NCBI GenBank assembly: GCA_900404475.1
Contig: OUQQ01000523.1
Span: forward strand, 1-14,828
Length of the DNA stretch: 14,828 bases
Direction: 5' to 3'
Source of the DNA: Spongospora subterranea
Taxonomy: Eukaryota; Endomyxa; Phytomyxea; Plasmodiophorida; Plasmodiophoridae
In this document: piece by piece, positions 1 to 14,828 of the stretch
Position numbering within the stretch: the first letter of the stretch is position 1
Layout of the letters: each line of letters starts with the position of its first letter
The notes under the pieces: generated by a model
The model's database searches: none
What the model was told of the DNA's origin: nothing
Seen by the model: the letters and a program-made list of their open reading frames with translations, nothing else
Translations under genes and position numbers: made by a program

Positions 1-159
1 CTAAAACAGAACTACCTAAAACGAGTGTTCTAAACGTGAACTTGATGAAGAGTGTGTTGTATTGAGTCATAGTTAGCAGGTCATAGGGCAGTAGGGCACA
101 TGACCTGCGTAAAGTAAAAAAACTTAAAAATAGTAGAAAATAGGCGATTCTTACGCCTC
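1..159. other. left-edge non-coding stretch
   Basis: No open frame of useful length or recognisable RNA gene is visible here. The stretch is AT-rich with scattered stops in all frames. It probably holds the promoter or 5' leader of the small gene that follows, or the tail of a gene to the left. Confidence 0.4.
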
Positions 160-442
160 ATGATGAAAGTCACCCACAAAACTGAGTATGACCGATTTTT
201 GTTGAAATTATCCGCTAGAATTGAAACAGATGCATTCAATGTTCGTTAGAAATGGCAGAAGAACGGAAGTCCATGTTCGAACGAATCTAACAAATTTGCA
301 GCGAATCGGCATGATACAGGCCTTATTAATGGACGTCAATGATGGAGAATTGCGGAGCCATAAAGAAACAGCAGTCAAATTTGGCTTCCGACAAAGACTA
401 TCCCGTTTTCATCTCAAGTCCGTAACGCAAAAAGCGGCGTGA
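160..442 (+). CDS. small two-exon hypothetical protein, ~73 aa
   Basis: I do not recognise this protein. Exon 160-240 begins with tandem ATGs (160 and 163) and joins exon 302-442 through a 61-nt GT-AG intron (241-301, donor gttcgt, acceptor tttgcag). The phase is clean and the stop is TGA at 440-442. The product would be a small basic protein with no evident signal peptide or membrane span; its C-terminal half is rich in Arg, Lys and Leu. An alternative is an unspliced 70-aa frame from an ATG at 230 that reads straight through the proposed intron. The intron length matches the rest of the window, which favours splicing. The stop lies only 39 nt before the methyltransferase ATG on the same strand, and no AATAAA-like hexamer is seen between them. 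It could also be the last exons of a gene starting to the left, or 5' exons of the next gene. Confidence 0.4.
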
Positions 443-481
443 AACGTGATCTGTAAATTTGCGTCAAAGTGTAACGGCAAG

Positions 482-1630
482 ATGGCCGTAACCGAATTGC
501 CACTGGCGTTCAGACAATTCTTGAGCAATAATGGAATATGCCATGAGCATTATCAAGGACAAGTTAATGCTGATGTCCCTAGGTTTATCCGACTGAATCC
601 ATTTGAAGTCATTGACCTTTGTCAACTGGCCGCTCAGCTGGGCTGCGTTATTGTCCCCACAGTTCTGTCCGATTTTTTCGCTCTTCCTGGGCACGTCAAG
701 ATCGCCACATTGGACTCTTATATCAGTGGCCAATTTTATGGTATTGATCTTGCGTCAGGTGAGTGTTTTAAAAAATATACGACCCATCCCTGTTTTGAGG
801 CCTGTGTCAGGCATTGCTGTCGATAACCTCGATCTCGAGAGTTTGACCGCTAACGATGTTTCGGTATTGGATTTATGCTGTGCACCTGGGGCCAAACTTT
901 CTATGATCTGTGATCGCCTTGGGCGTCGCGGCCATGTTGTCGGCGTTGACATCAATCAATCTCGTCTGAACGTAACTTGTCGGCAGTTTCGCGAAAAGTA
1001 CTCCATGTGCTCAGTGCCAGGTCGGGCCGATTTCAAGTTTGATTTGATCTGTGCCAGTGGAGTCGGATTCGCAATGACAGAACGTTCCTTATTCGACTTT
1101 GTAGTTGTCGATGCGGAATGCACCCATGATGGGTCCCTGAAAGTAACGCGATGTGCAATCAATATCTGTTGTTTTGCATTAATTCCGCTGATTCTGTATA
1201 GCATATCGTTAAGTTTTGTGCCAATGGCTGGGACATGTTTGAGAAGCGATTTTTGAATCCGGAAAGAATTGCCGAGATCACTCAGCTCCAGCGACAATTG
1301 ATATTATCGGGGTTCCACCTCCTTCGACATGGCGGTGTTCTCATTTACTCGACTTGCAGGTTTGTCTAGTGCTTGTGGCTTCACTATCTCACTCTTATCT
1401 GAAATAATGTGAAATACTCTAGTTTTTGCGTCGCGCAAAACGAGGACATTGTTAGATGGTTGTTGGAAACGGAGCCGAGCGCCACGATGCTGCCGTTGTC
1501 CGACTCCACCGTATCTATATCAAGTCCTGGTCATAATCTTCCTCTAGCTAGGAGACTGGATCCTATTTTCTCCAATACCAGCGCTTTATTTATTGCCAAA
1601 ATTAGAAAATCACCATTTCATTCCAATTAA
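482..1630 (+). CDS. NSUN-family RNA cytosine-C5 methyltransferase, 324 aa
   Basis: CDS join(482..758, 811..1142, 1202..1359, 1423..1630), 975 nt and in phase. The three GT-AG introns are 52, 59 and 63 nt. The ATG at 482 has a strong context (aagATGg). It is a SAM-dependent RsmB/NOL1-type enzyme of the class that methylates cytosine C5 in tRNA or rRNA. Seen directly: an N-terminal RFIRLNP segment typical of the family, a SAM-binding motif DLCCAPGAK (residues 113-121), VVVDAECTHDG with the motif IV cysteine (C196) but with the usual Pro-Cys-Ser-Gly core altered, and YSTCSF with the motif VI catalytic cysteine (C255). The length suits a compact member. No PUA domain is visible, so which paralogue (NSUN3/4/5/6 or a lineage-specific one) cannot be fixed. 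The gene is convergent with RFC2 and its stop overlaps a poly(A)-type hexamer. Confidence 0.88.
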
Positions 1631-1631
1631 A
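1626..1631 (+). terminator. poly(A) signal ATTAAA overlapping the methyltransferase stop
   Basis: ATTAAA contains the whole TAA stop (1628-1630). The convergent RFC2 stop begins 58 nt downstream, so the 3' UTR must be very short or overlap RFC2. Confidence 0.5.
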
Positions 1632-1687
1632 CACGTCTATTGTTTCGAATGCCTCGTTTGATCCATCTGGTGTTAGACAAGTATAGG

Positions 1688-1693
1688 TTTATT
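1688..1693 (-). terminator. poly(A) signal AATAAA overlapping the RFC2 stop
   Basis: On the minus strand AATAAA spans the RFC2 TAA stop (1691-1689). A second AATAAA lies ten bases upstream inside the last codons (1703-1698). The gap to the convergent methyltransferase stop is 58 nt, so the two 3' ends are back to back. Confidence 0.6.
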
Positions 1694-3023
1694 CAAGTTT
1701 ATTTCCTGATGCTAAAAGCGTCAGCTTTGAGACTAATCCACTCAATTGCACGATTGTGTCAAGACCGTTTGCGATACGAAGATGGGAAAATCCGATTTCT
1801 CTGATGAAGGCTAACTTCATTCCGGGGTCCATGTCGGCCGTTTTCACAACCCGAAATAGGGTCGTGACAATATCAATCGCCGCATATCCTTGCATGGACA
1901 GCCCTAGAGAGTCTGTCAAAATTGATTTAACGAGAAATTGATTATGACAGAACCTTGTAGACTGGATAACGCCTCACGAATACCACCTTGTATACATTGT
2001 GATAATAAATACTGCAATACTTTTGGATGTGGCTGATCACAGACTTTGAACACATTCTCAGCGTTGATCATGCCGAATCCAGCGTGGGTCGATTGCAAGT
2101 TGTTGAGCGCGTTGCGCATATCACCTTCGGCGGTGAAGAGGATCGCTTCTAGCCCATCTGGAGTATACGTCGTTATGCCTTCCTTCTTCAGAACATCTAA
2201 CAATCTCGACAACACCTCCTCATCAGAAAGGCGCGTATATCGAAGAATAGCGCAACGACCTAGGGCAGGGTTAGACGCAAAAGCCGATACCAAAACCCAA
2301 ACTTTTTTCACACTTTGGATAGGCTCAATAATTTTGCTGGATATATTACAGGCAAGGGCAAATCGGGTGGTGTCTGAATACAATTCCATTGTGCGCCTAA
2401 GGGCTTGCTGTGCACCCGTCGTCATACTATCTGCTTCATCAAGGATGACGATTTTGTGGCGATTAGGAGGGAGACCGGCAACTCGCTGCTGAGCAAACTG
2501 CTTGATAGTATTGCGAACCACATCGATACCGCTAATACCATATTCAACGATTGGGATATTTTCAAAGATGAGTTATTGAACAAACCGGTCATCGGATGCG
2601 TTTAGTTCAAGAACTGCGGATTTGAGATTTGTTCCTAGTAACTCTCGCGCCAAGCACATAATGCTTGTAGTTTTTCCAGTTCCAGGAGGCCCTGCAATCA
2701 TGATATTTGGAACATTGCCATCCTTGGCGATAATCTACCGAGAAACTCCATTAAGCAATAAATGAGATAGGATCGCAATTCCGCACCTTCAGTCGATTAA
2801 CGGTGGGTTCATTGCCGACAACATCATCCAAGACTCGAGGCCTGTATTTCTCGAGCCACGGTTCCTCCATCTGCCCTTGAGGGACTGTCTTGGGCCGGCC
2901 ACTGTCTATCGCCATATTTGATGAGGACGACGTCATGCTTTTCTCTAGCGCCTTCACGTCAACCTCGTTAGGGTGAAATAGGTCAAACTCCGCACCCAAT
3001 CCGCTCACAAATCCAATCATCAT
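1689..3023 (-). CDS. RFC2: replication factor C subunit 2 (RFC40), clamp loader, 377 aa
   Basis: CDS complement(join(1689..1912, 1954..2259, 2314..2531, 2586..2734, 2787..3023)), 1,134 nt and in phase, with introns of 41, 54, 54 and 52 nt. RFC is the five-subunit AAA+ ATPase that loads PCNA onto primer-template junctions in the nucleus. Seen: EPWLEKYRP near the N-terminus, Walker A GPPGTGKT (residues 94-101), [15 protein letters not shown], Walker B ILDEAD (158-163), [20 protein letters not shown], the arginine-finger SRC box (202-204), and the C-terminal collar helices. The recalled alignment to human RFC2 is close over the whole length and fits RFC2 better than RFC4 or RFC5. The 54-nt intron ending at 2260 is open in frame and would add 18 spurious residues inside the SRC box if retained. 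The first ATG after an in-frame stop is at 3023. A shorter start at residue 30 is possible, because the first 50 or so residues are unconserved. Confidence 0.95.
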
Positions 3024-4127
3024 GTAGTTATCTGTGTAGGTCGTGATCTTGTCGCTCGCTTGGTATCATTGTTATTCGCCAGTTTTTTGTAAGGTAGAAA
3101 GATCGACTGACGAAAGCCTGAGCAAACACTTCGTCAAATATTCTTTCCAGTTCTGATTTATGACCTGGTTGACCTTTTCACCTTCAAAAAGTAATGGTTC
3201 AGGTTTCCCACATAATCGGTATCTATACAACGCTGCCGAAACTTTTCATTGATTTCGGCTGAGTTGTTTCAATAACGACATTATTATTTGCAATACCTGT
3301 TAGTGTAAGAGAGTTTGACTACCTAGGCGACGTACGGCACAACTTGATAGTTCGCTATTCTGCAAATACTGTTGCTTTATTGTTATGAATAAATTTGGGA
3401 GTAAAAATCAGTTAGGCAGCGGTCAAAAAGCTAATCCGTTATCGTCAAGCAACTACCAGATGCAATCCACTTTCTGTGTTTGGAGGTTTTATAGATAATG
3501 ATGCTGAGTTGGTACTGTACTTCAAAATTTGTACGCTAACTTCGAAAGGAGAGTGTGTTTTTTTGCGTCAAATTATTTAATCACAACCTCATTCCCTGAA
3601 GGATAGTCCGATTCGTTTTGGAAATCAAAAGCGCCACGGTTTCAAATAATCCGCGTATAATGTTGAAGAGAGAATACCTTCACGTTGTCTGCAGGACTAA
3701 TGTTGATAGCAGCAGATTTTCTGTTAAGACTACCATATTATAGAATTGTAGGGAATTAACGGTAAAAGAACGGGTGGAGGACCTGATATAATGGGGTTTA
3801 CATTTTGCCAACAGTCTCGGCCAATTGCAACATGTCGCCGTGACATGCCCCTCGTGCTACAGTACAGTTTTCGTACAGTGTACAGTGGGAGCAACGCCAA
3901 CTCCAAAGCTACAATGTCGAAACCACACTTCTCTTCTCTATTCGATTCGTATTTATGTCAGGGGTCAGTCCGGCTTTGTTCTTGTTTATCAGGGAAAAGA
4001 ATGTCTACGATGTTCACCATAGAAGCTTGAGTGTAAACTCAAATTTCTGGGCGACATGCTGCCTTGGAAGGTTCAATTGCTATAGGCGCCTTGATCAACA
4101 AAAACCCCAAATTCGGTCACGTTGCAA

Positions 4128-4569
4128 CTTTCTTGAGTGTGAGTATTTACCCAAAGATTCACAGACATGAATTTATCATTTATGGGGCTTTCTTGCAGTT
4201 CAATAAGAAAAGAGTTTTTGTTTTTGTAAACTGTTTGTTCCAAGATGAGACAGTTTTCGATGACGCTTCGCTGTGCGCTCGTTGAACGAGGAAGAGTGAT
4301 ATACAAAACTGCGCGCAAATATTGCCGCATTTGTTGGAGTGCAATCANCTTTCTTGAGTGTGAGTATTTACCCAAAGATTCACAGACATGAATTTATCAT
4401 TTATGGGGCTTTCTTGCAGTTCAATAAGAAAAAGAGTTTTTGTTTTTGTAAACTGTTTGTTCCAAGATGAGACAGTTTTCGATGACGCTTCGCTGTGCGC
4501 TCGTTGAACGAGGAAGAGTGATATACAAAACTGCGCGCAAATATTGCCGCATTTGTTGGAGTGCAATCA
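4128..4569. repeat. 220-bp direct repeat flanking a single N (probable assembly duplication)
   Basis: Copy 1 is 4128-4347 (220 nt) and copy 2 is 4349-4569 (221 nt). Both start ctttcttgag and end gtgcaatca, and they are separated only by the N at 4348. The only difference I see is one extra A in a homopolymer in copy 2 (aagaaaag versus aagaaaaag, near 4208 and 4430). Copy 1 follows unique sequence on its left and copy 2 runs into unique sequence on its right. That is what two contig ends sharing an unmerged overlap would give. A real tandem duplication is the alternative. Confidence 0.85.
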
Positions 4570-4677
4570 ATCGGTTGTGAAGTTGTCTCCAGGATAGAGA
4601 CGGCGGGTTTGGCGGGCATCGCGCCCGAGGCTGGCTGGGTCTACCTTATTTTATAATCTCCCTCGATTACATATACG

Positions 4678-4713
4678 GACACTAAGACCCGATTACGTCT
4701 CGGTCCTGGTGTC
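4678..4713 (+). other. potential stem-loop upstream of the EP400-like gene
   Basis: Arms 4678-4689 (gacactaagacc) and 4702-4713 (ggtcctggtgtc) pair at 11 of 12 positions, including one G-T pair, around a 12-nt loop. It lies about 110 nt before the ATG. It may be an RNA structure in the 5' leader or chance; no known RNA family was recognised. Confidence 0.3.
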
Positions 4714-4820
4714 ATTCGTCGAGTTTATTGTGTAAAGAGGACGATTGCCCAAAGCCGTATGTACTACAGTGCATATTCATCTTGCTACTTATTTTGCATT
4801 AGATCATCACAATATTGTTT

Positions 4821-7800
4821 ATGGATCCAAATAGACGTCCTGCAGATGTGACAATGCGACTAACTGGATCAAATTTTGGTGGTGATCGGTCTCGAATTGC
4901 CACCGCTGCACAATTAAGAAATGCTTTGGCGAAACTTCGCATCAGGTCTTTTGAAACCAAATCATATTTTCCCGGTTGCGCTAACACCTTGCGTGTAGGC
5001 GAGGATTATTGAACCATGAACTTAATTCATTAATTACAGAGATGGGTCCGCCTCAAATATCTACGGATATTTCGACAACTATTGTTGGATCATCGCTGTC
5101 GGTCAACACCGACGTAAATGTTGGGGAGAACGCAGCGCAGGTCTCGAGTCAAAATGCATCTTCTACTGGACCATCTGTGTCCAAGACTGATCAGAATAAC
5201 CAACAAACAACCGCTGTACCTGCTGTTAAACCAGTGGTCTATTCAAATCTGCAACAAGCTTATTTGAGGCAAACTAGCCCGGACGATCTCGAGGAGCTGA
5301 TAAAGCAGCGCAATGCAGTCCAAGAGAAGTTGTTGAATTTTCAGAAGAATGCAGGGAAACGGTTGCCAGCTCCAAAGGAACCCCCGAGGTTGAGAACCAA
5401 CTGGGATTGTTTACTAGACGAAATGAAGTGGATGGCGTCTGATTTTGATCAAGAATTTGTGTGGAAGCGCACTTGTGCCCTCAATGTAGCTTACAAAGCT
5501 CAGAAACATGTGGAAAGGAGAACTTTACGCCGCAAGACCGTGGAGTTTGCCGAAATCGCATCTCGCAGAAATGTGGCTCGTACACTTTCTGCTGCAGTAT
5601 CTAATTTCTGGAAGCAAATTAGCCTTTTAAACAAGTTAAAAGAGGATTCTTATCCTGTAGAATGCTTCGTCACCAGGGCTGATAAGTATTCGTCTCCCGT
5701 AACTAATGATTTAGTGATTGATTCAAGCGCTATACACAAGGTTAGCCGTTATTGTATTTTTAAAATGTGTATTTTTGACTGCTGTTTTACTCAGACTCTT
5801 CGGAATAGTTTCATCGATGATCGGGTCATCTGTTACGGTGACTATCCAGGTTGAATCTCCAAGTTACGTTCAAAATTTTCTGAAATTGGTTTTTTAGAAG
5901 TTTCCAAGTTGCAAAATGTCGATAAACGGAGTTTTTTCAAGCAAGTAGTTGCAGCGCGTAAGTCCCAACCCCAAGGGCTGCTCAAGGCGTCGTGCCCCAG
6001 CGCAAAATATTCATCCTCTTGTGGCACCTCTTTACGTGATTACCAGGTTGTTGCTCTGGATTGGCTTTACAGCGTATCCGACCTTAATGCTGTGCTTGCT
6101 GACGATCCGGGCAAGAACTCTGTCGTTTCGCATTTGTTTTTTCTAACGTGTCTCAGGCCTAGGAAAGCACGTTGTCAGCGTAACGTTCCTGGCTAATCGT
6201 CCTTTGACGGCTGGCCGTCGGCACTTAATTATCGCGTCTCCTGCTTCAATCGACAGATGGCTCAACGAGTTCAACACTCGGTTTCCTTCCTTCACCACCG
6301 TAGTGTATAGTTCAAGGTAAAAACTCATTTTTGTTATGGGTAGTAGGACTCTAAGAACAGTTGTTGTCCAGTAACGCTGAACACAAGTCGACGCGGGCTG
6401 ATTTGGAAACCGCCTGCGTTTGTTTGACTACATTTCAGACAGCATCTACGGATGTGTTCATCCGCTCCGGATTGTGGGATTATATCATCATCGACGTTGC
6501 CGACCAGCTGTTTCCCGATTTTTCGGACAGTCATTGGGTACCGATTTTGTCGTTGGACGCTTCTCATCGTCTACTTCTGGCGACGGTTCACAATCAGGAA
6601 AATTCCAAAATGACATCTCTTCTATTGGAGTCATCGTTATTGCGTTTTATTGCAGCTGGTCTGTTTGAGTCTCTTGAAGACTTTAAGGTACAGAGGAGTT
6701 ATACGCTGTTGCGACCTGCTAAGGTCTCCATTAGTGCTGGGCTGATCAACAAAACGGGGTGTCAACCCCAGGACGACAGGATATATTTAAAAACGTTCAT
6801 TCTTTTCTCTCAGTTTTTGTTTTGCGGAGAACCGATGCTGAAGGTTCGTGCACAATTCAACATTGCTTTTATCGCTTCTGATATGAAGGTAGTTGCAGCG
6901 CAGCTTCCTTCATCAACGGATGAGATCTTTTTCTGCGAACAATCACAAAGGCAGAGTAAGCTTTGCAGTCGATTGCTACCAACTGATGCGAACTCGCTTG
7001 ATCTGCGATATGTCCTCCATCTTGTGATGAAGTTGCACCAGGCAAACTTATCTATCCCTGTTAGTAGTCGCTTTTTCTGATCACAATTTGTGTAGATCTG
7101 CGCTCACCCAGATATTGTGGATCCATTACCTGAACGGGATTCAGTATATTTGGATGTCTTTCCGTATATTCCAAAAATGTTTTCCAACATTATCGAGTAT
7201 AAGCCATTTTCCTACGTTTCCAAGAAGTTCATCACTGCGATTGCTGACGTGCAAATCGCTCCCTCTCGCCAGTCAATTGGATCACCTGTCAAAATGAATG
7301 TTGTTTCTACCCGGACACTCCCGTCAACGTCTCCCCTTTACGAAAATGCATTGAGATCATGCTTTGTCTCGCTTAATCTTGCGCGAATGCCATATACTCC
7401 TGAAGAATTTCATTCTAATACTGTTATCGATGTGAAACCAGTTCCATGTTTCGTCGCATTGTCAATATCAGAAATGTTTGAAGGGGCCGCATCCCTCTCT
7501 TCTATTTACCCTAGGTTCATTTCTCCAGTCATCTCGAGACCTTTTTTCGGAGATGGCATAGCCCTCAAGCACGACATCGTACCTGTCACCGATTACTCTG
7601 GCAGTCTTGTGATTGACGAATTCTGTAGGGACAGGCTACTTTCCCTGCGCCGGTTTCTTCCTGTTTCCATCGTTATTCTACGACTGCTAAGTTGCAACTA
7701 TTGGGAGTTTCCCTTAAGAATCTATTGCAACATGGTCGTCGTGTGATCATCATTGCACAGACTTCCGAAACAATCGATGTTGTGGAGTCGTTTTTACGTC

Positions 7801-10800
7801 AACATAGACATTCATATGTAATTACGTTTTATGAAATCTTTTGGGTCAGGCGATTCTGAGTTTGTGTTTATCAACGTCTAGGCTAGGGATAAGCTCCCGA
7901 ATGAGCTTTGCGAAGTCAAAGCAAAATCTGTTCCGTCGGTAACGCTCTGCTCCACGAGGTCGCCATCAATGCATACATCAATGTTTTTAAAAAACTTCGA
8001 TTCGGCGATTCTGTTTCAGCATGATTGGAATCCTGTTGTTCAGTCTCAGGTTGGCTAAACATGTTACTATTGTCTCCTGATGGTTTCTGACTGTTTGGAA
8101 GGTTGAATGTTTGCTCTCTGCTGCCTCCAAGGCTTCCAGCTTCAGCATCATCAGGCTAATTTGCAAAGATACTGTTGACGAGTTTATTGCAAATAACAGA
8201 CATTCAGTAAGTTGATAATTAACCTTTATCCATTCACTCCAGCTAATATGCTGTACAGCCAATTTTTGAAGCAACTGACCCGTTGAATATTCTTCTTGGC
8301 TCGCAATCCCGTCCCTTATCAGCATGTCCTCCGGTATAAGTGGTTTTTCACCAAAAATTATTGCTGAAATACGCGGCAGGAACACGAAGTTAGCGCAGCT
8401 ATGACGCACGTAGAGACTGCTGTTGATAACCATCTCGGCCAAGTTAGTTTTGTTTGAATTTTTTTCTCTCGTTCTCATTATCTTTAGTTATTACTAAAAC
8501 GATTGCAAGCTTTTCCCGAGCAAAAGATGTTCGCTCTTCTTTCTCAACCAGACATGGAACGCTCTTGGTTGCTGGGTTCGGGACTTCGACCCTTTGAGGT
8601 ATTCCATAATGTTTGATATTTTTTTGATTGTGACTTTCGCGCGCAGTTGTGGGCCCTTCAAAACATCGCGCGTGATCCCAAATGGGTTTCTTCAACATGT
8701 TACGATTTTTCAGCGAAACGACCTCTCACTGCTGTCGATCAGCTTGCGAATGAACCAACCCGCGTGGATGATGAAAGCATGGCGGTGATTAGTAATGGAC
8801 CAATGTGTTTGAGTCAGGTACCTGCCAATTCTCGATTGGCGTTAACTCGGTTGCCTAAACAACGCAAGCACACGGCTAATATTAAGGTTTGCGTTCCTTG
8901 AGCTGTGATTCTAGTTTGTAGTAACGATGTACAGGAGTCAAGCCTGTTTCCCTGTGGCGTTGTCATCGCATCAGGGCATCTTCGCTCCCTCGAAACCGAG
9001 CCTGTTCTTTATTACCTAAAATCCAGAACTGGGTGTTTCGAAGCGCAAGTTCGCCGATTCGCTGATGAACACAAGCTCTTTCTTGAATCTTCCGTTATTG
9101 CTCCTCCGTCTATCCCAGAAAGGGTATTTTTTTTTATTTTGGGAGTTATTTTGTAATCTTTTTGATTAGGATGAACTTTTCATACCGTCTTCAACTGGTG
9201 AGGACGACCTCAACGATTTTAGCCAGTGGGGTCTGTTTGCATCGGTGGACAGCCTTTCCCGAATGTTTCGTGTGCGTACACCACAATCGCGAAAGAAAAA
9301 GACCAAAAAAGCTCGTCGTCGCGGTATTCGGTTGGCGAACGTAATTACGGATGAAAACAGTACATCAATCAAGGTTCGTATTTCGTATTCAAATGTAGCC
9401 GGGTTCAAGAGAAAGGCGTTAGAGCAAACCCCGACTTCAACTGCCGCTAAGAAGCCGCGAACCACAAATGAACCAGTCTCGGTTGCGGCGCAAGCAGCCC
9501 AGGCCGCTGGTCTTGTGGCCGCGTTTCAGATCAAGCCGATCACCATGGCTCATCCAGTGCCTTTCTCTGACGAAGAGGTTCGTATTTTGATCCTAGGCGA
9601 CTCCTTCGGCTGATCAAAATCTAGGATGTGCTTGTTGTTTGTGCTGTTATGCTGTTCGGCTCAAACTTTGTAATTGCTGCAAATTTTTTGGGTAAGTTTT
9701 CATGCTTCTGAACCTCGCAATGGCTAATGATCAGTTCCAGATTCCGATTTGATAGTTTGTGGCCGCCTTAGGACCGCAAAACAATGCGCTGAAAGGTACG
9801 CTCATTTGGTACGCCGGGGCAAAGAAGTCGGGGAGAAATTATGGGAGAAGTTAGAGGCGTCTTCTGAACCAGGTTGCAAATCGTGAACACTTTTGCATCC
9901 CATTCAATGATTGTTTAACGATTCTCAGTTCCTCCAATCCCGGGATGCGACCCGCAAACCGGATATCGCCAAGCATTGGATTGGTTGAGGCATAGGAGTC
10001 AGGTCAGGAATAAAGCAGCGAGTGAGGCGCTGTTTGAAACTGTTTCTAATGCAGTCAGAGGTAACAAACTTATCTGCTTATCGATCATGTCGATTATTAA
10101 AGCGCTTTTAGGCATTACCCAGCATAATTTGTTATGTAAGAAGGCGTTGCGGTCGCCTCTGGCCAGTCTTCCGGTTGAAGCTTTCAAGGAATCACTTGTC
10201 AGAGCACATGCTTCGCATTCATTGGCTCTAACGGCAGGGCATAAAAGTAATTTTACCACTGTTTGCCAATGTCTTTTGTTCCTGACAAGAGTTTAGGATT
10301 AATGATCCCTCCTTCCAACGTCGGTTCGACTTTAAGTCCACGGCAGATTGTGGAACTTCGAGCCCTGCGCGACAGAACTCTGGAGTCGAAAAAGATGGCA
10401 TCGATTCAGACTCCCCAACAGCTGATGAGCCCCGGCCTCCGACCTGGGCAAATGGTCCCGACCTCGATGGTGCCTGCTGCGCGATCAGTGTCTGCTCCGA
10501 TGGCATCTTCCCCGGTTTTAATGAGTAATTCTGGGTCTACCGCCGAGCCCCCTTCAATGTCTACTACTCCCACCATGGCCATCGTCAGCCAGAATGTAGA
10601 TTCTGCTGACTTGGAAATCGACGCCAACAACCAGTTCCTTTTGCGGCAATTGATGCAGAACCACCCCGCAATGAAACCCAGGTTATTGGCCATTTTGCGG
10701 CGATCTGACTTGACGCAAGCACAAAAAATGGAGACGGTGTTGGCGTTGTTTCAGGCTTCGGATGACAACATGCAGGTTGACGGTTCCCTCTCTACATCTT

Positions 10801-10802
10801 AA
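4821..10802 (+). CDS. EP400/Domino-like chromatin protein with degenerate SNF2 ATPase, ~1,647 aa
   Basis: Proposed CDS join(4821..4974, 5040..5740, 5795..5837, 5898..6110, 6157..6316, 6372..7041, 7096..7578, 7629..7817, 7882..8049, 8102..8206, 8259..8333, 8380..8442, 8488..8598, 8647..8886, 8935..9123, 9170..9577, 9625..9691, 9741..9872, 9929..10060, 10112..10246, 10297..10802), 4,944 nt with phase kept throughout. Two donors are uncertain but phase-neutral (4974 or 4992; 5837 or 5849), and exon 6 may hide further introns. EP400/Domino proteins are the large nuclear scaffold and remodeller of TIP60/NuA4-type complexes that act on H2A.Z nucleosomes. Seen: HSA domain (about residues 166-236), SNF2-like region (345 to about 960), a basic Lys/Arg stretch near 9290-9330, a SANT/Myb fold (about 1,319-1,370), and a Ser/Pro/Met/Gln-rich tail. 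The domain order HSA-SNF2-SANT is that of EP400. The ATPase motifs are not intact. It is about half the length of human EP400. Confidence 0.82.
5381..5594 (+). other. HSA domain of the EP400-like protein
   Basis: The encoded segment has the HSA signature: PPRLRTNWDCLLDEMKWMA, then DFDQEFVWKR, then a basic run KAQKHVERRTLRRK. HSA domains form a long helix that binds actin and actin-related proteins (Arp4/BAF53) in NuA4- and SWR1-type complexes. The aromatic and acidic positions conserved in EP400 and Domino (NWD, DEM, WMA, DF) are present, so this part looks functional, in contrast to the ATPase region that follows. Confidence 0.88.
6032..8206 (+). other. degenerate SNF2 helicase/ATPase region (predicted pseudo-ATPase)
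   Basis: Homology to the EP400 ATPase is traceable piece by piece: LRDYQVVALDWL, then LADDP-GLGKH at Walker A (His where Thr/Ser is expected, residue 375), HLIIASPASIDRWLNEF (motif Ia region), WDYIIIDVAD at motif II (Val466 where the DEAH Glu is expected), RLLLATVHNQ at motif III, ICAHPDIVDP (CNHP motif), KLQLLGVSLKNLLQHGRRV, SAILFQHDWNPVVQSQ (motif V region), and SIIRLICKDTVDEF. Between the last two, the motif VI arginines (DRxHRIGQ type) are replaced by CLLSAASKAS. The fold may persist, but ATP hydrolysis is unlikely. Confidence 0.75.
9560..9823 (+). other. SANT/Myb domain of the EP400-like protein, split over three exons
   Basis: After splicing, PFSDEEDVLVVCAV, LFGSNFVIAANFL and GRLRTAKQCAERYAHLVRRG give the three SANT helices. 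They include the expected acidic DEED start, the hydrophobic core and the RTxxQCxxRY motif of helix 3. The introns at 9578-9624 (47 nt) and 9692-9740 (49 nt) fall inside the domain, so it is visible only after splicing. SANT domains in EP400 and Domino contact histone tails or TIP60 complex partners. Confidence 0.8.
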
Positions 10803-10806
10803 TATA
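10801..10806 (+). terminator. variant poly(A) hexamer AATATA at the EP400-like stop
   Basis: AATATA shares two bases with the TAA stop (10800-10802). No AATAAA is visible before the next gene. Its function is only suggested by the same arrangement in neighbouring genes. Confidence 0.35.
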
Positions 10807-10984
10807 TTATCAAGCTTAGTTTTTCTTTTGTGTCACGTTGGGTGGGCAACTGTTGTTGGTCCGTATCTGGAAACAGAGTTTGCCACCCAGTGTACATACT
10901 TGTGAGGGTGTACAGTCTGAGTGCGACTGGAGACACCATCACCCCCGTTTATTGTGTTGCCATTGCCCAACCTCCTTTGGCAAG
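10803..10984 (+). promoter_or_regulatory. short intergenic region upstream of NDUFA5, with imperfect inverted repeat
   Basis: The 182 nt between the EP400-like stop and the NDUFA5 ATG must hold the end of one gene and the promoter, or a trans-splice site, of the other. Arms 10840-10851 (gggtgggcaact) and 10877-10888 (agtttgccaccc) pair at 10 of 12 positions around a 25-nt loop. The frame upstream of the NDUFA5 ATG is open but has no ATG, so it is not treated as coding. Confidence 0.35.
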
Positions 10985-11457
10985 ATGCTCCGATTCGGAA
11001 ACCGTCTCACCTTGCGCTGCATCAACACGAAATGGTCGACTGGCATAAGCGGTCTTGATGTTGTCCCAGATGCTCGTGAAGTTTTGATTGGGCTATACAA
11101 AAAGACGCTCGAAGAGATCAAAGTACTTCCTTTTCATGTTTATCATAGTTTAACCATCAAACACTGGAATAGGTTGTTCCAGAGCATGCTGGATATCGTA
11201 TTGGCGTTGATCAAATCACGAAATTTCGACTCAAAGCATGTGAAGAACTAACGGATTGCAAAGCTATCGAAGATCGGATCGATGACGGTCAGGTCGAAGA
11301 ACTAATCGAACAAGCTCGTGCCGAGCTATCTTTGATTCCAAAGATGGTCGAATGGACACCCTGGGATGTACCTAAAGGGACACCCGAACCCCAAGTAGTT
11401 GACGAAGACGCCAGCGAACGATCTGCCCCTTCACCAACCCCATCGCAGTCAAAATAA
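10985..11457 (+). CDS. NDUFA5: NADH dehydrogenase (ubiquinone) 1 alpha subcomplex subunit 5, 140 aa
   Basis: CDS join(10985..11122, 11173..11457) with one 50-nt GT-AG intron. NDUFA5 (B13) is a small accessory subunit in the matrix arm of mitochondrial complex I. Seen: an N-terminus with basic residues and no acids, then the family's STGxxGL motif (STGISGLDVV), LYKKTLEEIK joined across the intron to VVPEHAGYR, the helical QITKFRLKACEE segment, VEELIEQARAELSLIPKM, and the WTPWDVP tail. This alternation of motifs follows human NDUFA5. A 25-residue acidic, Ser/Pro-rich C-terminal extension goes beyond the human protein (116 aa). It is convergent with the RhoGAP gene, with 39 nt between the stops. 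No clear poly(A) hexamer of its own was found, so its transcript probably ends inside the RhoGAP gene. Confidence 0.92.
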
Positions 11458-11492
11458 CAACCCCATTTCACGCCAATACCTGAAACTATGTC

Positions 11493-11498
11493 TATATT
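11493..11498 (-). terminator. variant poly(A) hexamer AATATA at the RhoGAP stop
   Basis: On the minus strand AATATA overlaps the TAA stop (11499-11497). This is the same arrangement as at the EP400-like stop. No AATAAA is seen in the 39-nt gap to NDUFA5. Confidence 0.35.
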
Positions 11499-13542
11499 AT
11501 GATGTTATCTCTGGCAGTATCGCTGAACTATCGCCATCATCGCTTAGTTCGCTGATTTCCTCGCTGTCTTCGTCGCCTTTTCCGCTAATAGAACGGACCG
11601 TTAATTCGGGATACGCCGTTTCGTATTTTGAATTTCCGTCGTCGGGTTCTGGTTCGCTGGAAAGCTCATCCTGCTCGATCGAATCCCTTTGGGTGAGTGT
11701 TGTCCCTTGTACTCTACTCTGCAACGTCATCGCGTTCATCGATCTCGACAATTGAGACATCGATGGGCCGTTCTTTTGGATGTTGTCTGTTGGCCTAATT
11801 ATTGGTGCAGCTGGCGGCAGATTTATAGCCAACGTCAACTTGGCGCTGTTAGCGACAGAGGGTAGACCCATTCCTTCAGTTGGCTGTTTGAAGCGGAGCG
11901 ATGACGATTTTACCATAGGTGGTGGGCGCTTCTCAGTGGTCGGTAAAGGAGCGGTTTCTGTGGGAAACGTCTCGTTCCTCGCTGATTCGCTGGCTTCGAA
12001 TTTATTTCTCCAGTAAGCGCAGCGTTCCTCAAGCTCCTGTACCCGATTCCGGAGATGGTCGAGCTGTTTCTGTATCCGGGGAGGAATCGGTTCCGGTTCC
12101 ATTGGCTCATCCGGTGGACTATTCTGTCGTTGAACGTTGGTACGATTGACTCCTGATGACATCCCACCAGCCATGCTCTTGCTGACATAAACGGGTGCTG
12201 TTTTCTGTACTGGCTCGGCGCGCTGTATTGACTGAATACTTCCCCTACTCGCCGTTGTGAACAACGTCGACATGAACGTTGATGGTGCTGATTCCTCTTC
12301 GGTTTCTGTGAACATCGGAACCGAAGGCCTTTGCGTTTTTGAAGTTGACTGTGATGATTGAACGCGAGGACGGATCGTTTCCCACACTTTTTGAGCGTGC
12401 CTGGAGGTACGTTTTAGCGTTTTCTGAATGTCGCCTCCGTTCTCAGCCAAGACGGCAGTTATTGCTCGTGCTGACGACGTCTTACTGACACAGTCAACAA
12501 TTGATATGGAATTGTTCCGATGTGAATGTCGACGTTGATCGAGTTCGACTGGGATTCCGTCAAACACTTCATTATATTTTGTGGTCAATATAGTGAAGAT
12601 TTGCTTCATATCGTAGATGGCGCCTGTTTCCGCCCCTGATAGGCAAGGAGAGAAACACATTGCCAGTGATAGTGCCGTCATCTTCGTACTGGCCTGATTG
12701 ATACAAACCTCTGATAATAGCCCGAACAGAGAGTGCATGATGGCGCGATTCTCGAGCGGCATCGACATGACAAGATCGTGGACTTTGGAGGCAGTATCGG
12801 CCTGAAGCATCGCCTGCAGGCGTTCGTGTGTGAATAACGGCGCTGGAAGACACCATAAAAGGCGCTTGATCGCCCCTCCAGTTGACTCCACATCTCGTGA
12901 TTCCTGAGCCGTCAATAGATTCGGCCGGTTCAAATAGACGGATCGACATATCGATTTGATCTGTTGGGATCGACCAGGAATCCGAAATAGCCTAATACAC
13001 CGGGGGTTATGAACGTTCATTATCGAGATGGTTGATGGCGTTTACCCTTCTTGTTGAGCACCACCGTTTGCTTTACAGGATGCGATTAGGTCCAGCAGTG
13101 AAAGAACGACATGACGTGGCATAGCAACTGGCTCATTTATATCGGTCCTTTTGGTATAACATCGTAGATTATAGACCCATGCTTGAGCTTCCTCTGGATC
13201 TGGAGCCAGTAAAAACACGCTCCGGTTTCCAAATAAGAGGACAATGGTTTTCCTTTGCGCGTCATCATCAGATAGATACGCTCCATGCATTTCGCAAAGG
13301 TCAATTGACCCTTTCTCAACATCGTCCTCTGGCCGATTATAGTACTTAAGCTTGCCCCATTCCAATCGAAAATGGCGCCGTTGATAGTAGTTCAGGCCGA
13401 GCTTGTTGTTGGTGAGCTTCTCAAGGACACCCTCCATGCGATATCCTCGAAGACCGCCTTCACTCTGAACCAGAGCGAATTTGGGATGGCACGCGACAAC
13501 GCCATCTCTCTTATATTGCAAACATTGTACGTCAAACATCAC
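11497..13542 (-). CDS. PH and RhoGAP domain protein, 663 aa
   Basis: CDS complement(join(11497..12991, 13046..13542)). One 54-nt intron falls exactly inside the arginine-finger motif. RhoGAP domains speed GTP hydrolysis by Rho-family GTPases; the PH domain usually directs membrane binding. Seen: PH domain about residues 36-131 (starts MEGVLEKL, conserved Trp122 in AQAWVYNL), then RhoGAP about 135-320 with EGLFRIPGR (finger Arg169), the conserved Lys in IKRLLWCLP (Lys208), and KMTALSLAMCFSP. The Asn usually conserved there is Ser274. The rest is low-complexity Ser/Pro/Thr-rich, with a short predicted coiled coil (IQKQLDHLRNRVQELEERC) and an acidic Ser-Glu tail. The order PH-RhoGAP-coiled coil resembles the ARHGAP22/24/25 group, but orthology is not claimed. 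An in-frame stop precedes the ATG pair at 13542. The DCTN3-like gene ends 66 nt upstream on the same strand. Confidence 0.9.
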
Positions 13543-13608
13543 TCAAGAATCAAACCGTAAAAGGGGAGATGGCCAAAAATGCAGAACTTGATCAACGGTG
13601 AAATGACA

Positions 13609-14320
13609 TTATTTTATTGCTGAGGTTTCAACACCCTCTAGTTGTTGTAGACGAAAATCGAGACGATGAAGACGGATTGAACATTTGTGAACCTGAAAAA
13701 TGTGATTCCAACAAGTTTTCGTCATTAAGATATAATGGTTGACCTGAGCGTGATAGGACGCAGCTAGCGCCTCAAGATGATAGCGCAATTGATCGGCGCG
13801 TTCAGCTCGGCTTGTCATGGCCACGATCATGTCATTAATGCGGCGATGGAGTTTGGCGGAATGCATATAATCTGGGTCTTGGTCCAGTACACCTGGTAAA
13901 CGACATTAGCGACGGATTATGGTGGATATCGTGTCACACCGCGAACGGAATCAAAATGCTCAAAAAGAGTGGTCAAATTCCTAACTCGTGGAAGACTCTC
14001 GATTAGGATATCCCATAGAGCAAACGAGTCGCCATGATTGATTAAAGTCGGAGTAATCCGATCATCTACAGATGGTCATTTCGTCCAGAGTGTTTGAGCG
14101 GCGATTGTCATCGGCTCTAACATAATCGGCATGCCTCATCGATATCGGGATGGGATTTCATCATGCTCTCCACCTTGGATTGCACAGCCCGTAGACGCTT
14201 CATCCTCTCTATTCGGGACGCTAACCTGGCTATTCGCAAATGGATGCCGGTTTGTCCATTGTCGACGATGTGGTCACTGATACTGCTTTCTGCATCATTG
14301 CGGTTGTGATCATGACCCAT
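13609..14320 (-). CDS. DCTN3: dynactin subunit 3 (p24)-like protein, 185 aa
   Basis: CDS complement(join(13609..13692, 13744..13892, 13940..14065, 14122..14320)), 558 nt and in phase, with GT-AG introns of 51, 47 and 56 nt. DCTN3/p24 is a helical subunit of the dynactin shoulder, which supports cytoplasmic dynein. The product is nearly all helical with heptad-like segments. Recalled similarities to human DCTN3 (186 aa) are YDRITPTLIN against its YIDRIAIPD region, LTTLFEHFDSVRGVLD against its NALVPMLDS segment, MHSAKLHRRINDMI against EHAARLQRLAQIHI, and a closing run of short helices ending near LQQLEG. These are weak individually but are in order and co-linear with equal total length. Other small coiled-coil proteins cannot be excluded. 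The symbol is a best guess. Confidence 0.6.
13613..13618 (-). terminator. poly(A) signal AATAAA in the last codons of the DCTN3-like gene
   Basis: On the minus strand AATAAA lies just before the TAA stop (13611-13609), so cleavage would fall about 10-30 nt later. That leaves almost no room before the RhoGAP ATG at 13542. Confidence 0.6.
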
Positions 14321-14527
14321 TTGATTGGTAATGACGATCTGTCGTCACGGCGGGAGGGATGCGCCCTGACTAGTGATGCGGATATTTTATAAAATATTTT
14401 ACGCATTTTAAAATGCCTTCAGATTTATTGGATTTTTTAATCGAAAAAAGTCCCAAAACCGTGGATCCGCGCAGCAAACTTCGGGCTCTCGTTTCGTTCG
14501 ACGTTTGTGCACATAGAAGCTCGTTCC
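14321..14527. promoter_or_regulatory. divergent promoter between the DCTN3-like and BED-finger genes
   Basis: A 207-nt region separates two divergent ATGs. Two perfect palindromes lie side by side: 14382-14397 (atattttataaaatat, 16 bp) and 14403-14416 (gcattttaaaatgc, 14 bp). The first contains TATAAAA on both strands, so one symmetric TATA element could serve both directions, about 65 nt from one ATG and 130 nt from the other. Confidence 0.5.
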
Positions 14528-14828
14528 ATGAGTAGCTCAAACAAACGAGGAAGGCCTCAGGCTGCGATCCATGTCCATTTCAAAAAGTTCCTCAAAACCG
14601 GCGATCTCAAGTGTGATCAAGCCGAATGCATTTATTGCGGAAAAAGGTTTGCATATTCGAAACAAGGTCTGGATCGACATGCAAGTAACTGTGCTAAGGT
14701 TAGATTTCCAAATCTCGTACGCCGATTCTCTTCTTGAACCAATATTCCTTAGTTCCCGCGTGGCATTGGCTTGCTTTGTAATGGACCTGTAGAATCTGAT
14801 TATATTTCTGACGATGGGGATGACCATG
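14528..14828 (+). CDS. BED-type zinc finger protein, 5' part (runs off the window)
   Basis: Partial CDS join(14528..14698, 14753..>14828) with a 54-nt GT-AG intron, open to the window end. The start MSSSNKRGRPQ is followed by a BED-like finger: a HFKKF aromatic/basic lead, then CIYCGKRF, then LDRHASNC, giving the Cys2-His-Cys ligand set. BED fingers bind DNA in chromatin factors and in hAT-type transposases, and many host genes with them are domesticated transposases. The second exon is acidic (ESDYISDDGDD). Too little is present to tell a host transcription factor from a transposon-derived gene. It shares a divergent promoter with the DCTN3-like gene. Confidence 0.75.

Follow-up and report, generated by a model that had tools for sequence, protein, structure and literature searches.

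A SWR1/SRCAP/EP400-class protein with degenerate ATPase motifs in Spongospora subterranea, a putative Eaf1-like scaffold

SRCAP, Swr1 and PIE1 are ATPases of H2A.Z exchange that combine an HSA domain with a split SNF2 motor, and the motor of INO80, a member of the same larger family, is split as well. In the human TIP60 complex EP400 is described as the scaffold: its pre-HSA region and part of its HSA hold the actin module, its motor and insert form a base with the AAA-ATPase ring, and its SANT domain contacts the TRRAP module (PMC11995519). Yeast Eaf1, as presented in PMC7239659, is an HSA and SANT scaffold without motor activity; according to the same source a Drosophila DOM-A ATP-binding mutant (K945G) still restores H4K12ac and, in work cited by its authors, a DOM ATPase placed in yeast Eaf1 left Eaf1 function unaffected. 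Here we report a gene of this class on a contig of the plasmodiophorid Spongospora subterranea (OUQQ01000523.1; C92 in our searches), whose bases 1-14828, the whole stretch of DNA analysed, are called the window; the genome searched comprises 20.59 Mb on 679 contigs. The gene codes for a protein with the domain order of SWR1/SRCAP/EP400 proteins, in an open frame, from which most of the catalytic motifs are lost. We consider it probable, judging from sequence, that this member of the class has turned into a non-hydrolysing, Eaf1-like scaffold of a NuA4/TIP60-type complex.

The 1665 codons contain no internal stop across all 21 exons, as the initial annotation had noticed for a frame of about 21 exons. 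The 20 introns measure 36-64 nucleotides (nt), with GT-AG ends in 19 and GC-AG ends in one, and 15 of them would introduce an in-frame stop if retained. The degenerate motifs singled out in that annotation, namely GLGKH, DVAD, LLLATVHNQ and a motif VI devoid of arginines, are all read in frame as it described them. Its claim that every catalytic residue is lost is too strong: motif III and the arginines of motif VI are gone, as are the Thr of Walker A and the Glu of motif II, but the lysine of GxGK, the first aspartate in motif II, DWNP and the Q motif are still present. Judging from these motifs, it is very unlikely that the protein hydrolyses ATP. The GLGKH reading depends on one junction, that of the only intron with GC-AG ends. 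There the frame stays open with eight splice choices, the model's own included, and GK[T/S] results from none, so that alternative splicing restoring Walker A, which had been named as a possible refutation, was rejected.

The extent of the loss was evaluated on an alignment of the window protein, SRCAP, EP400 and 26 retrieved SNF2 proteins (25 of the 26 passed the length filter in lobe 1 and all 26 in lobe 2). Columns conserved in at least 80% number 54 in lobe 1 and 40 in lobe 2. The window protein retains 28 and 12 of them, SRCAP 46 and 35, and the retrieved proteins 44-54 and 33-40; human EP400 keeps 31 (with 11 gaps, as its aligned segment ends early) and 25. In the columns conserved at 40-80% the window protein equals human EP400, each keeping 16 of 63 in lobe 1 and 19 of 58 in lobe 2. 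The minority of reference proteins that carry organism names come from four bacteria, one fungus and one plant, and therefore these mid-conserved columns do not reflect the SWR1 class in particular. The loss, being concentrated in the most conserved columns, appears to be selective.

This combination of losses is peculiar to the window's gene within its genome. A search for SNF2 genes returned 43 matches on 19 contigs, that of the window among them. On the 18 others, GK[T/S] could be read in 15 (it is split by an intron in C170 and was not located in C304 and C249), the DE of motif II in 15 (not located in C304, C576 and C679) and the arginines of motif VI likewise in 15 (not located in C450, C23 and C149), and wherever readable none of these was replaced. 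Smaller departures are seen in an ATRX-like gene (C428), with GKS, DEGI and SGYP; the window's gene stands alone in having neither a Thr/Ser in Walker A nor the Glu of motif II nor either arginine of motif VI.

By its sequence the protein is a member of the SWR1/SRCAP/EP400 class, mainly on the HSA domain and the lobes taken together: an HSA domain lies upstream of an insert-split SNF2 motor that is nearest to SRCAP and EP400, and the matched lobe stretches stand about 210 residues apart, as in motors of the INO80/SWR1 type. Against PDB sequences the whole protein, HSA included, scores 138.4 bits with SRCAP, 131 with EP400 and 82 with both INO80 and SWR1. The parts differ, since the HSA stretch prefers EP400 (53.2 bits) over SRCAP (45.8), whereas the ATPase lobes prefer SRCAP (63.7 and 33.4 bits) over EP400 (51.1 and 26.2); on the lobes alone SRCAP is best and INO80 (82) is about level with EP400 (51 plus 26). 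The EP400/Domino-like identity first proposed is right as to class; as to branch, the HSA favours descent from EP400 and the lobes descent from SRCAP/SWR1. In the genome, the window gene is the only match to the HSA profile, although this search misses intron-split domains, because a BRM-type gene (C204) that is expected to have an HSA was not matched. The flanking domains had been described as well kept, which is correct for the HSA (E 2.5e-8), while the SANT domain corresponds only to a sub-threshold Myb match.

Compared with the described systems, the protein resembles human EP400 and Drosophila DOM-A in its HSA domain, its split SNF2 motor and the C-terminal position of its weak Myb/SANT-like match. 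Human EP400 is itself off consensus, with DEMQ in motif II, LLLID in motif III (LLLTG in SRCAP) and Trp for the first Arg of motif VI, yet GKT, the DE pair and the second Arg of motif VI are all retained in it; the initial annotation had stated as much for motifs II and III and for GKT and DE, and the alignment now shows it. The window protein differs in lacking these three, and its lobes are nearer to SRCAP. With SRCAP, Swr1 and PIE1 it shares the HSA and split motor, and SRCAP gives the top PDB score; unlike SRCAP and Swr1 it lacks the catalytic motifs, GKT, DExx, motif III and the motif VI arginines of an active ATPase being absent, and H2A.Z was not found in its genome. INO80 has a similarly split motor, but INO80 proper is a separate gene (C343) that keeps GKT, DEAQ, TGTP and the motif VI arginines. 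The likeness to yeast Eaf1 is in the proposed function, that of a scaffold with HSA and SANT but no motor activity. SNF2 lobes are absent from Eaf1, whereas the window protein retains both as a remnant (PF00176, E 3.7e-20).

Genes for some putative partners in a NuA4/TIP60-type complex are present. Matches of the Tra1/TRRAP type were found on two contigs (C338 and C212), and MYST acetyltransferases on two (C144, nearest to KAT8 and then to TIP60 and ESA1, and C352). Concerning the actin family, there are matches on five contigs: C309 is ARP2, C249 scores best to ARP1 and actin, C379 is nearest to ARP5, and C241 and C251 are taken to be actin and ARP3. Over its length this ARP2 is 90% identical to that of Plasmodiophora brassicae, against 80% for the second-best protein listed, and on this marker an animal host, first suspected from the EP400 label and from animal-like histones, was rejected. 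The initial annotation had suggested a TIP60/NuA4-type scaffold, and with TRRAP/Tra1 and MYST genes at hand this is the best reading also for us. The protein, presumably expressed, would act without ATP like yeast Eaf1, or like Drosophila DOM-A in its ATPase-independent function: the HSA segment would hold an actin-type module, the C-terminal part would hold the TRRAP/MYST acetyltransferase part, and the motor lobes would persist as a folded spacer or docking platform. The dead lobes may still hold a RuvB-like ring. As a separate observation, two Tra1-type contigs in one small genome look as if two Tra1-based complexes had been retained.

Several results weigh against the scaffold proposal. 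The exons are predicted, joined by hand from the three forward-frame translations, and the model is least certain at the start codon and in the region of exons 15-17. A close homologue was not found, one protein search giving 26 generic SNF2 proteins and another none among 59 candidates; these searches are blind to proteins outside 0.55-1.75 times the query length. The Myb match (PF00249) has an E of 0.012 in the whole protein and, for the piece alone, 9.6e-5 with 22.9 bits, under the cut-off of 24.4, and this piece found no EP400 or Eaf1 chain among PDB sequences at E≤10. The genome search for EPL1, which is among the core subunits of NuA4, gave no hit, its only control match being a sub-threshold archaeal one, with no eukaryote control matched; ARP4, the expected partner of the HSA, was not recognised among the actin-family matches.

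The initial annotation had also supposed another enzyme to carry out H2A.Z exchange, which our results do not support. Among the 18 other SNF2 contigs, of which three were scored against PDB and 15 were named only from family signatures and identity to SRCAP, we recognised no further ATPase of the SWR1/SRCAP type. The three were examined as a hidden SRCAP/SWR1 and rejected: C343 scores 526.5 bits with INO80 against 369.7 with SRCAP and 341.5 with SWR1, C204 scores 121 with SNF2L2 and 119 with BRG1 against 84 with SRCAP, and C387 scores 118 with SNF2L2 against 86 with SWR1 and 79 with SRCAP. When the SRCAP lobes were used as query, the best genome matches were C204 for lobe 1 and C343 for lobe 2, which PDB assigns to SNF2L2/BRG1 and INO80. 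H2A.Z was not found either. Among the 11 matches of the histone search there are two H2A genes, C412, which has an SQEF tail, and C480; both are taken to be canonical by their signatures. A human H2A.Z query matched only these two at E≤0.1 (62-63% identity), its core only the same two genes at E≤10, and a degenerate pattern for PRHxQLA[I/V]R, which leaves a TTA/TTG leucine at the variable position uncovered, only the C412 and C480 places. YL1 was not found in a genome search in which no control matched, and ARP6 was not found in the actin-family searches. The absences of H2A.Z and of a second motor are the stronger ones because their families are well detected by these searches.

With neither a second SWR1/SRCAP-type ATPase nor an H2A.Z recognised, the exchange pathway itself may be gone. 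That the whole of it (H2A.Z, the working SWR1/SRCAP-type motor, YL1 and ARP6) was lost, the sole SWR1-class protein being an ATPase-dead acetyltransferase scaffold, an Eaf1 counterpart with a dead motor attached, is a tentative proposal that we take seriously but stop short of favouring. It should be noted that the assembly, at 20.6 Mb, may lack a quarter of the genome, since other assemblies of plasmodiophorids measure 25.5 Mb (P. brassicae) and 27.1 Mb (P. betae, PMC6328671); EPL1 and ARP4 being missing too, single absences carry little weight here. Two side observations concern the histones. The H2A gene at C412:8250-8489 ends in SGSQEF, presumably an H2A.X-like tail on a canonical H2A, and the H3 sequences (L032-L036) have core residues such as RKYQKS, LRFQGTAVL and AIHGKR, which are unusual relative to animal and fungal H3.

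Other explanations of the degenerate motor have to be considered. A decaying pseudogene, or relaxed selection before loss, would account for degraded catalytic motifs, and the lack of a homologue in the protein collection fits fast, weakly constrained change. However, 1665 codons are free of stops and frameshifts, the 20 introns keep GT-AG or GC-AG ends, and the mid-conserved columns are retained as in EP400. Moreover, random drift simulated on the 656-codon motor region produced stops well before such a divergence (at 0.05 draws per site a mean of 2.9, with 4 open runs in 100; at 0.1 draws per site a mean of 5.5, with no open run in 100), while the window motor, far beyond the simulated levels in its divergence from SRCAP, has none; the model is a simple one and demonstrates only frame retention during motif change. 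We regard decay as quite unlikely, in line with the initial annotation, which had argued against a decaying pseudogene. An error of assembly or of the splice model, behind which the true protein would be active, could be suspected from the non-canonical GC-AG intron at Walker A and from a duplication upstream, with 221-222-bp spacing beside the N at position 4348, which denotes local assembly trouble. But that N falls outside the gene, none of the eight open splice choices at motif I gives GK[T/S], and motifs II, III, V and VI lie within exons and are all lost, which makes such an error very improbable.

Two further alternatives accept a protein without hydrolysis. Nucleotide might still be bound, as a switch or a structural ligand, and the lysine of GxGK, the first Asp in motif II and the Q motif, all retained, speak for this. 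Walker A has lost its Thr and motif II its Glu, however, and motif III and the two arginines are gone as well, so that magnesium binding and lobe closure should suffer, to judge from SNF2 biochemistry; we consider nucleotide binding unlikely. It is also unlikely that the protein is a descendant of Swr1 with an ATP-independent role in a SWR1-like complex, for instance as an H2A-H2B chaperone, and not in NuA4. The lobes do score higher to SRCAP than to EP400 and EPL1 was not found, but neither were H2A.Z, YL1 (no control matched) and ARP6, and the TRRAP/Tra1 and MYST genes are present.

The features of the gene and its neighbours are collected in the table. Upstream of the gene the window holds a direct duplication at 4125-4569 (140 nt at 100% and 101 nt at 93%), the halves of which meet at the N; it is probably an assembly join. 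The inter-lobe stretch itself matched no Pfam family, and an Rfam scan of the window gave no match. The G+C content is 45.2% in the window and 44.8% in the loci fetched from the genome, beside 45.1% for P. betae, 45.7% for S. subterranea and 58.5% for P. brassicae as given in PMC6328671. One protein, ARP2, and this base composition are most in keeping with a plasmodiophorid other than P. brassicae; an 18S search gave no match.

Table. Positions in the window of the SWR1/SRCAP/EP400-class gene, its parts and the neighbouring genes
Feature	Positions	Strand	Description	Evidence
Whole gene, SWR1/SRCAP/EP400-class protein	4821..10802	+	21 exons, 1665 amino acids	Hand splice model, Pfam and PDB matches
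HSA domain	5375..5518	+	Residues 168-215, exon 2	PF07529, E 2.5e-8, 34.6 bits (cut-off 23)
SNF2 lobe 1	6041..6978	+	Residues 356-634, exons 4-6, with Q motif LRDYQ	PF00176, E 3.7e-20
Walker A remnant	6110 (first base, first Gly codon) and 6157..6170	+	GLGKH, Thr to His	Splice model, alignment
Sole GC-AG intron	6111..6156	+	Splits Walker A into two halves; CTAAC as a branch-like site	Splice model
Motif II remnant	6493..6504	+	DVAD, catalytic Glu to Val	Frame translation, alignment
Motif III position	6571..6597	+	LLLATVHNQ (SRCAP: LLLTGTPLQN)	Translation, PDB match, alignment
Inter-lobe stretch	7096..7628	+	Mostly exon 7 (7096-7584), limits approximate	Between matched stretches, residues 634 and 844
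SNF2 lobe 2	7686..8200	+	Residues ~844-976, exons 8-10	phmmer match to SRCAP and EP400 lobe 2
Motif V position	7951..7989	+	STRSPSMHTSMFL (SRCAP: STRSGGVGVNLT); motif V gone	Alignment
Retained DWNP	8023..8034	+		Alignment
Motif VI position	8102..8143	+	VECLLSAASKASSF, both arginines missing	Splice model, alignment
Weak Myb/SANT-like domain	9557..9799	+	Residues 1334-1384, exons 16-18	PF00249
Neighbour	807..1253	+	RsmB/F-type methyltransferase	Pfam
Neighbour	1919..2521	-	Clamp-loader (RFC-like)	Pfam, sub-threshold
Neighbour	10985 to ~11450	+	NDUFA5	Pfam
Neighbour	11500..13020	-	RhoGAP	Pfam
Neighbour	13045..13542	-	PH domain	Pfam

The main text of a survey that covered the SNF2 genes of 180 eukaryotes, two Rhizaria included, makes no mention of Plasmodiophora (PMC10538959). 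In the literature covered, by titles and abstract openings and with few subscription papers, neither a SWR1-class protein with a dead ATPase nor a plasmodiophorid that has lost H2A.Z was described. A broad survey of eukaryote chromatin genes by Grau-Bove and others (2022) may already contain part of these findings. In Drosophila and yeast, by the account of PMC7239659, an EP400-type protein's motor can be dispensable for the acetyltransferase complex; if the scaffold proposal is true, natural selection would show the same in this organism, where the protein was kept and its chemistry dropped. The case would then bear on how Eaf1 and Swr1 separated and, if H2A.Z is truly missing, this nucleated parasite would stand out as a clear exception.

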